From assembly GCA_025924315.1 (NCBI GenBank), contig JAICIO010000039.1, positions 1 through 46,668 of the forward strand: 46,668 nucleotides of DNA. Reading direction: 5' to 3'. This stretch comes from Phycisphaerae bacterium. Its GTDB lineage: Bacteria > Planctomycetota > Phycisphaerae > Tepidisphaerales > Tepidisphaeraceae. Both the position numbers and the translations under genes were made by a program. A model generated the notes under the pieces. It did not search any database. It was not told where the DNA came from and worked only from the letters and a program-made list of their open reading frames with translations. This document shows positions 7,013 through 45,600 of this stretch, piece after piece. Position 1 is the stretch's first letter. Each line of letters begins with the position of its first letter.

Positions 7013-8008
7013 GTGAAGCAAAAACGTTCCGACATCTTCATCCACCTGATCCTGCTCACGATCCTGGGGCTGACGCTCCTGCCGTTTGTGTTCGTGATCA
7101 ACAATTCCTTTCGCCGCACGAACGAGCAGTATCACAGCTTCTTCGGGGTGCCGGAGTCGGCGTCGAACCTCGTGCGGTTCACGTGGTTCAAATTGACGGG
7201 CCAGCCGGATCGCATCGAGCTCCGCATTATGCCCGAACGGAAAGACGGCAAGGCGCAGACGGTGCGCGCCGCGGACGTGCCGATGACACGCATCAGTTAC
7301 GGCGAAGCGATGTCCAATTGCTGGCACGAGCTGTACAAAGGGTTCGTTTATGCGTGGCAGGTTTTTCGCCCGTTCATGATCAACTCGCTGATCGTTTCAA
7401 TCAGCAGCGCCTTCGGTGTGGTGCTGGTGTCGTCGATCAGCGCATACGTCTTTGCGCGCTATCGATTCCCCGGCCATCGCGCGCTCTTCTTCGTGATCAT
7501 CAGCTTCATGATGATCCCATGGGTGCTGACGCTCGTGCCGTCGTTTTTGTGGGTGAAGACGCTCGGTCTGATCAACAGCTACTGGGTGCTGATCCTGCCG
7601 TACATCGCCGGCGGGCAGATCATCGCGATTTTTTTGTTCAAAGGATTCTTCGAGGGACTTCCGGAAGAACTGTTTGAATCGGCAAGGCTCGATGGCGCCG
7701 GACATTTCGCTCAGTACTGGAACATCGTCGTGCCGCTGAGCAAGCAGATCATGGCGGTCGTGGTGATCGTGAACATCCTGGGGACGTGGAACAATTTCCT
7801 CTGGCCGCTTATCGCAAATCCCGATCAGAAATTCTCCGTCGTGTCGACGGGTCTCTATTACCTTTCTCAAACGCAGGCAGCGGGGAATGGCGATAAGTCG
7901 ACAATGTTCGCCGCGTATGTGATTGCGAGCATTCCGCTGCTGGTGTTGTTCATCTACGCGACGAAACCTTTCATGACCGGCGTGACCGCGGGGGCGTTCA
8001 AGGCGTAA
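7013..8008 (+). CDS. ABC sugar transporter permease, MalG type
   Basis: Second CUT1 permease, 331 residues, starting at GTG (MKQKRSDIF). The EAA-type loop is ESARLDGAGHFAQYWNIVVP, and the C-terminus ends FMTGVTAGAFKA as is usual for MalG relatives. The loop between membrane segments 1 and 2 (about residues 35-110) is longer than usual and contains a basic insertion (GQPDRIELRIMPERKDGK). Only weak Shine-Dalgarno complementarity precedes the GTG. It is co-oriented with the binding protein and first permease, but separated from the latter by a palindrome. Confidence 0.92.
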   Translation: MKQKRSDIFIHLILLTILGLTLLPFVFVINNSFRRTNEQYHSFFGVPESASNLVRFTWFKLTGQPDRIELRIMPERKDGKAQTVRAADVPMTRISYGEAMSNCWHELYKGFVYAWQVFRPFMINSLIVSISSAFGVVLVSSISAYVFARYRFPGHRALFFVIISFMMIPWVLTLVPSFLWVKTLGLINSYWVLILPYIAGGQIIAIFLFKGFFEGLPEELFESARLDGAGHFAQYWNIVVPLSKQIMAVVVIVNILGTWNNFLWPLIANPDQKFSVVSTGLYYLSQTQAAGNGDKSTMFAAYVIASIPLLVLFIYATKPFMTGVTAGAFKA

Positions 8009-8024
8009 ATGTGGCACGGATGAA

Positions 8025-8132
8025 TGGTGGCACCGACATTCCCGATCGGTGATCGGGCACGGTATTCCGTGACCGATTGCGTCGATGAGTACATCGGCGC
8101 ATCACAGGTCCCGGCGCGCCGGGATGCCACCA
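8025..8132. repeat. Four-hairpin cloverleaf repeat, family C copy 1
   Basis: The closing stem TGGTGGCA (8025-8032) pairs with TGCCACCA (8125-8132). Inside are four hairpins: ACCGA/TCGGT (8032-8050), ATCGG+CACGG/CCGTG+CCGAT (8052-8077), TGCG+CGAT/ATCG+CGCA (8078-8101) and TCCCGGC/GCCGGGA (8109-8124). It is homologous to copies at 16323-16425 and, inverted, 45498-45600. The fourth hairpin has an entirely different sequence from the other copies but is still fully paired. Confidence 0.85.
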
Positions 8133-12215: not shown

Positions 12216-12245
12216 AAAGAAGCGTTCGTGGGGACTACATTTCTT

Positions 12246-15200
12246 ATGCGCAAAAGCATCATTCTTGGTGTCGCAATTCTTGGCCTGAACCTTTACGCCG
12301 CTGACGCGCCGACGAGTCAGCCGGTTGGCGTTCTGCCGGTCGCGGACGACGGGCACACCGTCAACACCGACTTCGAAAGCGGCACGCTGAAGGACTGGAC
12401 GCTGGAAGGCAAAGCGTTCATCGGCCAGCCCGTCCGCGGCGATACGGTGCACGAGCGCCGTCCCGACATGCACTCGCAGCACCAGGGGCAATATTGGATC
12501 GGCACCTACGAAACGACCGAAAGCGACGGCCCGCGCGGATCGATGGAATCGATCCCGTTCAAGTGCTCAAAACCGTGGGCGATGTTTCTCATCGGCGGCG
12601 GGAGCGGCCCCAGCACGCGCGTCGAGATCTGCGATAAGGACACGCGCTCGATTCTTTACGAGGCCAGCGGCGCGGACGAAGAAGACATGCGCCCGATGGT
12701 CGTCGACATGCGCCGCTACGTCGGCAAGGAAATCTACCTGCGCGTGGTCGATGACATCAGCTTCGGCTGGGGCCACATCAACTTCGACGACTTCCGCTTT
12801 TACGATACCGAGCCGGACGTTCCCCAGCGCCGGCGGCTTACGCCGGATGTCGTGAAGAATGCGGGCCTGAAGCCAGAAGACGCGGTGAAGGCGATGACCC
12901 TTCCGCCGGGGACGAAGGCGACGGTCTTCGCCGCCGAGCCGGACGTGCATCAACCGATCGGTTTCGCGATCGACGACCGCGGACGGCTTTGGGTCGCGGA
13001 GGCGTACACCTATCCGACGCGCGCGCCCGAAGGCAAAGGCAGAGACGACATCCTCATCTTCGAAGACACCGACGGCGATGGGAAATTCGACAAGCGAACG
13101 GTCTTCACCACCGGATTGAATCTCGTCAGCGGAATTCAAGTCGGCTTTGGTGGCGTGTATGTCGGTGCGGCGCCGTATCTGCTTTTCATCCCGGACAAGA
13201 ATCACGACGACAAGCCCGACGGTCCGCCGGAGGTTTTGCTCGACGGGTGGGCCTATCAGGACACGCACGAGACGCTCAACACGCTGTCGTGGGGCCCGGA
13301 CGGTTGGCTGTACGGTTGCCAGGGCGTTTTCACGCATTCGAACGTCGGCAAGCCCGGCACGCCGGAGAACGAGCGTACGCCGATCAACGCCGGCGTGTGG
13401 CGCTTTCACCCCACAACGCACAAGTTCGAAATCTTCGCGGAGGGCACCAGCAATCCGTGGGGGATCGACTGGAACGACGACGGCCAGCTCTTCAGCGAAG
13501 CGTGTGTTATTCCGCACCTGTATCACTTGATCCAGGGCGGTCGCTTTCAGCGGCAGGCGGGGCAGCATTTCAACCCGTACGTCTACGACGACATCAAGAC
13601 GATCGCGGATCACCTGCACTGGGAAGGCGATACGCCTTGGCAGGGAAACAACAAGTCCGCCGGCGCCGGCGGCGGGCACGCGCACGCGGGCATGCTCATG
13701 TACAAGGGCGGCGCATTTCCTGATTCCTGGCGCGACCAGTTCTTCATGGGCAACATCCATGGCAATCGTATTAATCACGACATACCGGAGGCCAAGGGCT
13801 CGGGCTTCGTCGGACATCACGGACCCGATCTGCTGCTCATGAACGATTCGTGGGCGCGCATTGTCGACCTTCAGTCCGGTCCCGACGGCGGAATTTATTT
13901 CAACGACTGGTACGACCGCCAGGCGTGCCACAACCTCGATCAGAACATCTGGGACCGCACCAACGGCCGCATTTACAAGCTCACCCCGTCCGATGCGAAA
14001 AACGCCGAGCCGGTGAATGTCGGCGCGATGACCGACGAACAACTCGTCCAGGAGCAGCTCAACAAGAATGACTGGTTCGTTCGCACCGCGCGGCGAATCC
14101 TGCAGGAACGCGGGCCAAACCCGAAGGTCCACGAAGCGCTGCTCAAGATCATCCGCGAAAATCCGGATGAAACGCGCAAGCTGCGCGCGATGTGGGCGCT
14201 GCATTCCACACAGGGCTTCACCAGCGCCATCGCCGAAGAACTGCTCGCAAGTCCGATGCAATACGTCCGCGCCTGGACCATTCAGCTTGCGGTGGAGAAT
14301 GGCGAGACGGACAGCGTCCTCTCGACCTTCGCGAAGCTCGCGCACAGCGACCCCTCACCGGTCGTGCGACTTTATCTCGCCAGCGCCATGCAGCGAATTC
14401 CGGAAGAGCAGCGACACGATGTGCTCGTCGCGCTGGCGGCGCACGGTGAAGACAAGGACGATCACAACCTTCCGCTGATGTACTGGTATGCGATCGAAGG
14501 CGCCGTCGCGAAGGATTTGAAATTCGCCCAGACGATGGCGCAATCCACGGCCCTGCCGATCCTGCGCGAATACACGGCGCGCCGCGTATCGGTCGTGGGC
14601 GATGGCAAGGAATCGCTCGCGATGCTTTCAGGATTGCTCGCGAAATCCGATGACGCGGCCGCGAAGAGCATTCTCACCGGCATTCGTGACGGCCTTGCGG
14701 GCAAGGACGCGATGTTCACGCCCCAGGGCTGGACGGAGGCATACGACAAGCTCAGCGCCAGCAAAGACGAGCAGGTGCGAATGCTCGCCCAGAACCTCGC
14801 GGTGCTGTTTGGCGACGAGCGAGCGCTCGCCGCTGTTCGCCAGGTCCTCGCGGACAACAAATCCGACACCAACGCGCGAAAGACCGCGCTCGAATCGCTC
14901 GTCCGCGCGAAGGACAAGCAGCTGGCGCCGATCCTGCTCTCGCTGCTCGACAACGCCGAGCTTCGCGATGATGCCATCAAAGCGCTGGCGACACAGGACG
15001 ATCCGAAAACACCCGAGGCTTTGATCGGGCGTTATGCGTCGTTCGAGCTCTCGGAAAAACGCGATGCGCTCAACACGCTCGCGTCGCGCACGGCCTATGC
15101 GAGCGCGCTCGTCGATGCGGTGAAAGGCGGCAAGATCAGCCGGACCGACCTTCCGCCGTCGATCGTGCGGCAAATCTCGGATCTGAATGATCCGGCCCTC

Positions 15201-16283
15201 AGCAAATGGGTGGGTGAAACGTACGGCGCGATTCGTCAGACGCCGCAGGACAAGTTGGACCTGATCGCAAAGCTCCGCCGGGTGCTCAAATCGAAAAACA
15301 GCGTCGAAGATCCATCGCGCGGCCGGGCCATTTTCGCCGCGACGTGCGCGCAATGTCACACGCTGTTCAACGAAGGCGGACACGTCGGGCCGGATCTCAC
15401 CGGATCGAATCGAAAGGACCCGGAGTACCTGCTGCAGAACATCGTCGATCCGAGCGCGGTGATTCCAAAGGACTACACGGTTTCGATCATCGGCATGAAA
15501 GACAACCGCGTGCTCTCCGGCATCATCCGCAAGGAAGATCCGGACGCGGTCACCGTGCAGACGGAAAACGAGCAGCTCGTTCTCCCCCGCGGGCAGATCA
15601 AGAAGATCACGCGCAGCGACGTGTCGATGATGCCCGAAGGTCTGATGACGGCGCTGAAAAACGACGAGATCCGCGATCTGTTCTCATATCTGCGTGGGTC
15701 GTCGCAGGTGCCGATGCTGGCGACGGAGAAAACGGTCAAGAGCTTCTTCAACGGCAAGGACCTGACCGGCTGGACTGATCCGGACATGTCGCTGTGGCAT
15801 GTGGAGAACGGCGAGATCGTCGGCAAGACCGATGGGCTCAAGCAAAACCATTTCCTGGTGAGCAAGATGATCGTCGGCGACTTCAAGCTGACGGTGCAGA
15901 TCAAGCTCGTCGACGACAAAGGCAACAGCGGAATCCAGTTCCGCAGCCAGCCGATCGAGAACGGCGAGATGAAGGGCTATCAGGCGGATGTCGGCCCCGA
16001 CTGGTGGGGTCGCTTGTACGAGGAACAAGGCCGCGGAATCCTGGCCGAGCCAACCACGAAAGACGCGGTAAAGCCCGGCGATTGGAACACGTACGAAATC
16101 ACCGCCGTCGGCGATCACATCGAAACGAAGATCAACGGTAAGCCGTGCGTGAACCTGAACGACCCGCCGGGCGACAAACGCGGCGCGGTTGCCTTCCAAC
16201 TCCACGCCGGCGGACCGACAGAGGTGCGCATCAAGGACATCAAACTCGAGGTCGATCCGAAGACGCTTGGCATCGTGCAGTAA
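12246..16283 (+). CDS. PVC-type haem-binding dehydrogenase fused to DUF1080 domain
   Basis: An exported multidomain protein of 1345 residues. ATG 12246 gives a signal peptide (MRKSIILGVAILGLNLYAAD). Order of parts: a jelly-roll-like module (about 35-190), a beta-propeller of the PVC membrane-dehydrogenase type (about 215-570, with FAAEPDVHQPIGFAIDDRGR and SWGPDGWLYGCQG), alpha-helical HEAT-like repeats (about 590-1010), a cytochrome c haem site CAQCH at 1034-1038 inside the PVC haem domain (NEGGHVGPDLTGSNRKDP), and a C-terminal DUF1080 domain (about 1165-1340, SFFNGKDLTGW). DUF1080 is now linked to 3-keto-disaccharide hydrolysis, and the propeller plus haem suggests sugar oxidation with electron transfer, so one polypeptide may oxidise and then cleave a glycoside (inference). 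It is the last gene of the carbohydrate locus. Confidence 0.88.
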   Translation: MRKSIILGVAILGLNLYAADAPTSQPVGVLPVADDGHTVNTDFESGTLKDWTLEGKAFIGQPVRGDTVHERRPDMHSQHQGQYWIGTYETTESDGPRGSMESIPFKCSKPWAMFLIGGGSGPSTRVEICDKDTRSILYEASGADEEDMRPMVVDMRRYVGKEIYLRVVDDISFGWGHINFDDFRFYDTEPDVPQRRRLTPDVVKNAGLKPEDAVKAMTLPPGTKATVFAAEPDVHQPIGFAIDDRGRLWVAEAYTYPTRAPEGKGRDDILIFEDTDGDGKFDKRTVFTTGLNLVSGIQVGFGGVYVGAAPYLLFIPDKNHDDKPDGPPEVLLDGWAYQDTHETLNTLSWGPDGWLYGCQGVFTHSNVGKPGTPENERTPINAGVWRFHPTTHKFEIFAEGTSNPWGIDWNDDGQLFSEACVIPHLYHLIQGGRFQRQAGQHFNPYVYDDIKTIADHLHWEGDTPWQGNNKSAGAGGGHAHAGMLMYKGGAFPDSWRDQFFMGNIHGNRINHDIPEAKGSGFVGHHGPDLLLMNDSWARIVDLQSGPDGGIYFNDWYDRQACHNLDQNIWDRTNGRIYKLTPSDAKNAEPVNVGAMTDEQLVQEQLNKNDWFVRTARRILQERGPNPKVHEALLKIIRENPDETRKLRAMWALHSTQGFTSAIAEELLASPMQYVRAWTIQLAVENGETDSVLSTFAKLAHSDPSPVVRLYLASAMQRIPEEQRHDVLVALAAHGEDKDDHNLPLMYWYAIEGAVAKDLKFAQTMAQSTALPILREYTARRVSVVGDGKESLAMLSGLLAKSDDAAAKSILTGIRDGLAGKDAMFTPQGWTEAYDKLSASKDEQVRMLAQNLAVLFGDERALAAVRQVLADNKSDTNARKTALESLVRAKDKQLAPILLSLLDNAELRDDAIKALATQDDPKTPEALIGRYASFELSEKRDALNTLASRTAYASALVDAVKGGKISRTDLPPSIVRQISDLNDPALSKWVGETYGAIRQTPQDKLDLIAKLRRVLKSKNSVEDPSRGRAIFAATCAQCHTLFNEGGHVGPDLTGSNRKDPEYLLQNIVDPSAVIPKDYTVSIIGMKDNRVLSGIIRKEDPDAVTVQTENEQLVLPRGQIKKITRSDVSMMPEGLMTALKNDEIRDLFSYLRGSSQVPMLATEKTVKSFFNGKDLTGWTDPDMSLWHVENGEIVGKTDGLKQNHFLVSKMIVGDFKLTVQIKLVDDKGNSGIQFRSQPIENGEMKGYQADVGPDWWGRLYEEQGRGILAEPTTKDAVKPGDWNTYEITAVGDHIETKINGKPCVNLNDPPGDKRGAVAFQLHAGGPTEVRIKDIKLEVDPKTLGIVQ

Positions 16284-16322: not shown

Positions 16323-16425
16323 TGGTGGGACCGGCATTCCTGTCGGTCACGGTCGGATGTACTCATCCGAACGATCGGCTCGCGGGTACGACGAGCCGTG
16401 ACAGGCAAGAATGCCTGTCCCACCA
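16323..16425. repeat. Four-hairpin cloverleaf repeat, family C copy 2
   Basis: The closing stem TGGTGGGA (16323-16330) pairs with TCCCACCA (16418-16425). The four inner hairpins are ACCGGCA/TGTCGGT (16330-16347, one G-T wobble), TCGGATG/CATCCGA (16353-16370), CGGCTCG/CGAGCCG (16376-16398) and GACAGGCA/TGCCTGTC (16400-16419). Hairpins 2 and 3 share almost no sequence with the other copies, yet pair perfectly. Confidence 0.9.
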
Positions 16426-16574: not shown

Positions 16575-17691
16575 ATGATTCACGAGAACCTGTCTCAATC
16601 GATCGAAGACCTTTCATCCCGGATGCTCGCCATTCGGGACTCTCTTTGACGTTCCGTCTAAACAAATCCGCAAGAAAGAACTCGAAGACAAAATGGGCCA
16701 GCCGGGGTTCTGGGATCACCAGGACTCGGCCAAGGCGGTCGTGTCGGAAGTGAAGGTCCTCAAGGCCGTCATTGAGCCGATCGAGTCGATGCTGCGCGAC
16801 ATCGATGACGTCAAGGCGCTGTACGAGCTCGGGGAAGAGGCGGGCGATCAGGCTTCGCTTGATGAGGCGGATCAGTTGCTCGCGAAGCTCGAGAAGCGCG
16901 GCGAAAAGGTCGAGCTGCAGGCGCTCCTCGACGACCCGAACGATCCGCGGAACTGTTTCTTTACGATTCAGGCGGGCGCGGGCGGAACCGAGGCGCAAGA
17001 CTGGGCGGAGATGCTGCTGCGGATGTATCTGTACTTCTTCGAGCGCCGCGGATGGGATGTGAGCGAAGTCGACCGGCAGTATGGCGAACAGGCGGGGATC
17101 AAGACCGCGACGCTCTATGTGAAGGGCGAGTACGCGTTTGGTTATCTGCGCGCGGAGGCGGGCGTGCACCGATTGGTGCGGCCGTCGCCGTTCAATGCGC
17201 AAGGCAAACGGCAAACGAGTTTCGCATCAGTGAACGTCGTGCCGGAGTTCGATGGGGCGGACACCGAATCGGAAATCCCGGAACAGGATCTCGATATCGT
17301 TGCGTTCGTGCGCGCGTCAGGCCCCGGCGGGCAGAACGTGAACAAGGTCGCCAGCGCCGTTCGCATCGTTCACAAGCCGACGGGAATCGCAGTGACCTGT
17401 TCCGTCGAGCGCTCGCAGCAGCAGAATCGTCGCCTGGCGATGGCGATCCTGACCAGCAAGCTCGAGGCGATCGAGCAGGCGAAGCGCGATGAAGAACTGC
17501 GTGCGGTCGTCGGCGATCCGAAGGCGGTTAGCTTCGGGTCGCAGATCCGCTCGTACGTCCTCGACGACCGCCGCGTGAAAGATCACCGCACAGGCGTCGA
17601 AACCGCAAATGTCGAGAGCGTGCTGGATCGCGGGGAACTGGACGAGTACATCGATGCGGAATTGAGACGACGGAAGGAAAAGAAGAAGTGA
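16575..17691 (+). CDS. prfB: Peptide chain release factor 2, +1 frameshift gene
   Basis: Releases finished proteins at UGA and UAA codons. The gene is read in two frames: 24 codons from ATG 16575 (AAGGTG lies 7 nt upstream), an in-frame TGA at 16647, then a +1 shift so that GAC at 16648 continues to 17691, giving 371 residues, the normal RF2 size. The RF2 stop-recognition tripeptide SPF is in RLVRPSPFNAQGKRQ, and the catalytic GGQ is in ASGPGGQNVNKVAS. The shift makes synthesis respond to RF2 level: scarce RF2 lets the ribosome pause at UGA and slip. Reading only the second frame from ATG 16693 would lose the N-terminal helix. Convergent with the PIN-domain gene. Confidence 0.95.
16632..16650 (+). 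promoter_or_regulatory. prfB programmed frameshift site
   Basis: The slippery CTT TGA C (16644-16650) is identical to the classic RF2 site. The upstream Shine-Dalgarno-like stimulator is poor here: only CGGGAC (16635-16640), where enterobacteria have AGGGGG three bases before CTT. Confidence 0.92.
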
Positions 17692-45497: not shown

Positions 45498-45600
45498 GGC
45501 GGGACAGACATTCCTTGTCTGTCATGCGCCGAGGTATTGCTCGACGCATCTCGGACTCGGAATACCGCGTCCGAGCACCGACAGGAATGTCGGTCTCACC
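45498..45600. repeat. Four-hairpin cloverleaf repeat, family C copy 3 (inverted)
   Basis: Relative to copies 1 and 2 this copy is reversed. The hairpins, in + order, are GACAGACA/TGTCTGTC (45503-45523), ATGCG+CGAG/CTCG+CGCAT (45524-45549), CTCGGAC/GTCCGAG (45550-45575) and ACCGACA/TGTCGGT (45577-45594). A closing stem joins 45498-45505 with 45593-45600, with one mismatch and one wobble. It lies in a divergent promoter region. Confidence 0.88.

Follow-up and report, generated by a model that had tools for sequence, protein, structure and literature searches.

The window analysed here, a stretch of 46,668 nucleotides of contig JAICIO010000039.1 from a Phycisphaerae bacterium, carries transporter, hydrolase, release-factor and oxidoreductase genes among which three copies of a repeated element are dispersed. 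These copies had been noticed in a sequence-only reading, and all three were found at the positions listed in Table 1, two on the forward strand and one on the reverse strand. The closing stem GGTGG/CCACC that this reading had assigned to all of them is intact in the copy at 16324 and degenerate in the copy at 45498.

Table 1. Positions of the element copies, their parts and neighbours in the window, and of the ThiE-RAYT fusions in related genera. Likely gene starts were judged from the sequence.
Feature	Position	Strand	Description
Element copy 1	8026..8131	+	106 nt; hairpin 4 tip replaced by TCCCGGCGCGCCGGGA (8109-8124)
Copy 1 neighbours	7013-8008; likely start ~8164		ABC-transporter permease gene; next gene
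Element copy 2	16324..16424	+	101 nt; GGTGG, four hairpins, CCACC
Copy 2 neighbours	12228-16283; 16693-17691		DUF7133/3-keto-disaccharide hydrolase gene; peptide chain release factor gene
REP half-unit end, copy 2	16324..16348	+	GTGG foot and end hairpin 1 (GACCGGCA TTCC TGTCGGTC)
Inner hairpins 2 and 3, copy 2	16349..16399	+	tips GTACTC and GGGTAC
Inverted REP end, copy 2	16400..16424	-	end hairpin 4 (GACAGGCA AGAA TGCCTGTC) and CCACC
Element copy 3	45498..45600	-	103 nt; closing stem degenerate (GGTGA/CCGCC)
Copy 3 setting	likely start ~45408	-	copy upstream of Gfo/Idh/MocA-type oxidoreductase gene
ThiE-RAYT fusion	L143:1947-3728
ThiE-RAYT fusion	L144:3018-4769
ThiE-RAYT fusion	L146:1716-3374	-
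ThiE-RAYT fusion	L147:1606-3342	-

A covariance-model search, proposed at the outset as a check, revealed that the own genome contains at least 75 copies of full length, including all three window copies. The model was derived from 15 ungapped copies; at least 150 rows were obtained, corresponding to at least 77 places once the strands were merged, and 75 were kept after two contig-end duplicates had been dropped. The two strands scored near-equally because the element is a pseudo-palindrome. When the copy at 16324 was used as a DNA query against the same genome, 55 matches were obtained. Four loci (L050, L055, L060 and L061), for which the offset was wrong, do not enter the results. The element consists of GGTGG, hairpin A, hairpin B, hairpin B′, hairpin A′ and CCACC, and the consensus accommodates the four proposed internal hairpins exactly (5 + 20 + 26 + 26 + 20 + 5 = 102 nt). 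Each half comprises GGTGG, an 8-bp end hairpin with the loop TTCY, and an inner hairpin of about 5 bp, one mismatch and 5 bp with a GTANTC tip, the halves being mutually inverted and usually abutting. The modal length is 102 nt (30 of 75 copies; range 92-125), with the extra bases of longer copies placed mostly between hairpins 2 and 3, and the median identity among the 102-nt copies is 80%. Across 130 in-register halves, the foot, the hairpin tips and some stem positions were near-invariant, while other stem positions were variable yet paired.

Two types of halves could be distinguished, A (CCGACA arm) and B (CAGRCA arm), and the 60 typed doublets comprised 51 A/B, 9 B/B and no A/A combinations. 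We considered whether this hetero-pairing reflects selection against perfect inverted repeats; since the copies share ancestry, the lack of A/A doublets (0/60) was not accepted as independent evidence, and the A/B pairing was probably inherited from a common ancestor. In seven copies, namely window copy 1 and six others (L089, L090, L095, L097, L102 and L103), the end-hairpin tip is replaced by TCCCGGCGCGCCGGGA. A larger repeat, whose ends are inverted (ACTCCTTTCGCGTTCTC / GAACGCGAAAGGAGTGG), surrounds four copies (L015, L016, L017 and L026), of which three are at contig ends. We looked for an empty version of this larger repeat and found none. With the exception of one short partial match, all matches to the larger repeat adjoin the element, and it therefore offers no evidence of insertion.

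The three window copies folded far better than dinucleotide shuffles, both as RNA and as DNA (z approximately -6 to -8.6 on the described strand), and none of the shuffles folded as well as these copies. For single copies, the predicted fold was either the cloverleaf or one long hairpin, two forms that compete. In the 15-copy alignment, 95.8% of the cells were paired and 24 of the 41 pairs had changed on both sides, whereas this pattern collapsed in slid controls. On the tree, 72 independent double changes were counted as compared to 1.2 (maximum 4) under random re-pairing, and one-sided intermediates were few both in this count and in the alignment. This was in agreement with the initial proposal that the structure is conserved. 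Paired changes in hairpins 2 and 4, on which that proposal was built, are indeed present, but the stem TCCCGGC/GCCGGGA of the 8026 copy represents the tip replacement by TCCCGGCGCGCCGGGA rather than point-by-point compensation. One stem position departs from pairing: 31.46 was non-Watson-Crick in 113 of 130 halves (87%), mostly as G.A or A.G and across 40 different stem backgrounds, whereas pairing at the adjacent positions was 92-96%. A mismatch of this type is also readable in several copies from another genus (G013).

According to passages in PMC6006769, a REP is recognised by a GTAG or GTGG tetranucleotide located 0-2 nt 5′ of a hairpin. Exactly this arrangement is found in the element, where GGTGG precedes the end hairpin and is near-invariant in the 130 halves. 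The exact REP pattern had 128 matches in the genome (63 forward, 65 reverse) and 0 for the reversed control, and a 22-nt REP pattern with up to two mismatches matched the window 4 times against 0.16 expected. With these 128 REP matches and at least 75 elements, mostly extragenic, the copy number is as high as that of REPs; singlets are rare, as only 4 of the 100 REP matches listed fall outside a complete element. The repeated unit is thus the doublet of two inverted REPs that defines a REPIN. The sequence-only reading had placed the element outside the REPs, and this had to be revised: each end hairpin, together with its GTGG foot, is a REP, so that the element amounts to a REP doublet carrying additional inner hairpins.

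The suggestion to look for a RAYT proved fruitful. The Y1 transposase domain (PF01797) occurs ten times in the own genome and is present in all nine element-bearing relatives. Relatives from four genera (G003, G013, G021 and G022) encode an in-frame fusion in which a RAYT domain is joined to the C-terminus of the thiamine-synthesis protein ThiD2-ThiE; the Pfam domains of the fusion were checked for G003, G013 and G022, and a murJ-like gene follows, as read from neighbouring frames. In all four fusions, the RAYT part is flanked on either side by the element's REP, as is typical of REPINs, and in G013 and G022 the downstream REP copy belongs to a complete four-hairpin element. In the linker of the fusion, the REP is translated as VGQTFLSV. 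Among all Y1 loci fetched, REP matches were confined to the four fusions, one own-genome locus (L161) and one G047 locus. For L119, L137, L144 and L146, this result rests on REP presence in the locus, and distances to the RAYT are disregarded. RAYTs scoring above 250 bits were detected only in G003, G013, G021 and G022, all element-positive, among 28 genomes; since the profile was built from the same four fusions, this result speaks to absence elsewhere, and the ranking is not independent.

The own genome lacks a ThiE-RAYT, with no RAYT at its thiE-murJ junction, and no close RAYT was seen in the incomplete assemblies of the element-bearing G001 and G025. The closest RAYT of the own genome (L161; G000:C20:5030-5455) is a distant relative of the fusions that scores above the Y1_Tnp cut-off and keeps the HUH and tyrosine motifs. 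One element lies 0.9 kb upstream of it, and the REP just upstream (L161:1381) contains TCCCGGCGCGCCGGGA, the tip found in seven element copies. This gene thus appears to be the best candidate partner of the element in the own genome. Directly downstream of it lies another REP type (GTGGCACAGCCG...CGGCTGTGC; L161:1961-2090). On a further contig (G000:C124; L162:1-2589), a RAYT domain is located in frame inside a DinG-like helicase gene, where the bounding palindrome differs (CACGGGC...GCCCGTG); the same arrangement may recur in several relatives in which RAYTs were seen within long open frames.

Element matches were obtained in 9 of 60 relatives, seven from the same family and two from another, and these elements differ in length and in their inner hairpins. 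G013 has a GTAC-tip type like that of the window together with a longer CATTC-tip type, and the foot at the RAYT locus of G021 and G003 is GTAG. Furthermore, the pattern is matched in named records that include MAGs of Planctomycetota and Acidobacteria. In one Acidobacteria MAG (QHYE01000052.1; L177:5695-5772), a 78-nt relative has inverted GGTRGGACAGRCATTC REPs around an apparent single inner hairpin with a GTACTC tip, possibly a three-hairpin form. The element also occurs on a contig of a Hyphomicrobium MAG (L176; JAICLG010000263.1). Horizontal spread was ruled out in this case, as the contig shares 99.7% identity with the window's genome over 3,110 bases; this indicates that a contig was misplaced in one of the two bins, most probably in that of Hyphomicrobium.

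The element boundaries are sharp and the adjoining sequence is AT-rich. C or T precedes GGTGG in 74 of 75 copies, and A or G follows CCACC in 68 of 75. Direct repeats of 2-6 nt in the flanks did not exceed the shuffled expectation, so that the target duplication of DDE-type MITEs was not observed. An ad hoc coding score assigned 68 of 75 copies to intergenic positions or gene edges, in agreement with the dispersed and mostly intergenic distribution proposed earlier, while ~86% of the window is coding. A two-sided coding test placed seven copies inside genes; a first count of 26 in-gene copies was inflated by start-codon choice and is superseded by this figure. The gene-pair settings were 31 tandem, 13 convergent and 3 divergent. 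One copy (L005) lies in frame within a COX15/CtaA gene (ctaA), adding ~35 residues that are missing from the ctaA homologues of G006, G007, G010 and G014. Since the length of this loop varies in other homologues, the empty site is approximate, but the comparison suggests that the element was inserted into ctaA. Between close strains, neither excision nor insertion of a copy was observed. The copies are fairly diverged, and it is therefore uncertain whether they are presently active.

Together these findings make it likely that the element is a REPIN in which each half contains an additional, mismatched hairpin, and that it is mobilised by a RAYT; binding, cutting and movement are what we infer. 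In the single-stranded state, for instance on the lagging-strand template, each half would fold into two hairpins. A RAYT/TnpA-REP protein, with its HUH motif and one tyrosine, would then recognise the GTGG foot together with the conserved loops, and perhaps also the mismatch, and would cut at or near both ends of the element. Moving as single-stranded DNA, the unit would enter an AT-rich region at a pyrimidine-purine site, and the target would not be duplicated. More tentatively, the REP may be bipartite, with the transposase or its dimer engaging both the footed end hairpin and the mismatch-bearing inner hairpin of each half. If so, the RAYT would recognise the four-hairpin junction as a single-stranded DNA structure of a type undescribed for such enzymes, and within this bacterial family element and RAYT would constitute a REPIN lineage of their own.

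Conceivably, the paired changes could have arisen without selection on structure. Template switching or whole-hairpin exchange can yield paired changes, so that selection need not be their sole source, and together these processes could explain part of them. A mainly mutational origin, in which template switching or hairpin exchange between copies repairs the arms, draws on the ability of template switching to create and repair stems (PMC8794818), on the observed whole-tip replacements and on the scarcity of one-sided intermediates. We nevertheless regard it as unlikely, because arm-copying would erase a mid-stem mismatch; its retention in so many stem backgrounds points to more than arm-copying, and loops and foot are near-invariant in sequence. 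The sequence-only reading had allowed for DNA or RNA as the folded molecule. Strong covariation, a stable predicted RNA fold and the many copies between tandem genes would suit a structured RNA product of the copies, non-coding or regulatory, whose cloverleaf fold is under selection. Under selection on RNA, however, G-U would be expected to exceed A-C on the transcribed strand. When elements were turned the same way, 13 G.T and 19 A.C were counted, and per half, with the weak pair 26.51 left out, 22 and 19, so that G.T was no commoner than A.C on either strand. In addition, an Rfam 15 scan of the window gave 0 matches, in line with the earlier view that the element is not a tRNA or other known RNA. 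With the strand symmetry, the lack of a G.T excess over A.C and the absence of an Rfam match, we favour folded DNA rather than RNA as the constrained form. Given also the unrelated gene settings, the many copies, the REP feet and the RAYT association, an RNA function is very unlikely.

Roles as a terminator, mRNA stabiliser or gyrase site have been hypothesised for REPs in passages of PMC3733652, and the intergenic placement with its preponderance of tandem and convergent over divergent settings would be compatible with a regulatory or topological site that the host retains because it serves the adjacent genes. Against this stand the copies within reading frames, such as that in ctaA, and the unrelated genes around the others, which render such an origin highly unlikely; a host role could moreover accompany mobility as a secondary effect and need not be a competing explanation. 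It also seems very unlikely that the element is a MITE dependent on an IS200/IS605-type insertion sequence or on some other non-RAYT transposase. It is small and repeated, has hairpin ends and lacks target duplication, and an IS200-like TnpA (L031) is encoded in the genome. Yet the hairpins beside this TnpA are unrelated to the element, whose ends carry the GTRG foot of REPs and whose REP flanks RAYTs in four genera.

The movement of REPs and REPINs is still unproven, and the present family of REPINs amounts to a natural experiment, with many stem sequences and a constant foot, constant loops and one mismatch. Its copies separate the parts kept in sequence, which are candidate protein contacts, from those for which only pairing is kept. 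A RAYT lies beside the same REP in several genera, and binding and cutting are directly testable with short oligonucleotides. Furthermore, such strong covariation in an apparent DNA element is a warning to methods that take covariation as proof of RNA.

The IS200/IS605 elements encode HUH/Y1 transposases, have end hairpins and cause no target duplication. The present element resembles their ends, and MITEs, in its link to HUH/Y1, its hairpin ends and the lack of target duplication, but unlike IS200/IS605 it has a GTRG foot and near-symmetric ends. Apart from the REP-flanked RAYT genes, no autonomous copy with the element's ends was seen. The REP and REPIN literature, as far as the available passages cover it, describes doublets, feet, mismatches and compensatory changes, and a four-hairpin unit is absent from these passages; the REPIN class itself is already known, and the novelty is the four-hairpin architecture. 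The E. coli REPs and BIMEs with TnpA-REP, as described in parts of PMC8266576, share the GTRG foot, the hairpin, a conserved mid-stem mismatch, which is needed for TnpA-REP cleavage, and the inverted arrangement. There, however, foot and mismatch reside in one hairpin, whereas in the present element the footed hairpin is perfectly paired and it is the inner one that contains the mismatch. The GTAG-tagged REP families, reported also in the PVC superphylum, are likewise tagged palindromes that form dimers preferably of two different types, but the passages of PMC3733652 mention no four-hairpin unit. Also close to the present element are the REPINs of Pseudomonas fluorescens SBW25, for which the relevant parts of PMC3116915 describe an extragenic inverted REP doublet as the unit, frequent compensatory changes, a RAYT nearby, and a proposed clover-like fold with competing fold forms. 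In contrast to these, each half of the present element has a second hairpin that bears the mismatch and ends in a conserved tip of its own, the foot is GGTGG, and the halves usually join without a spacer.
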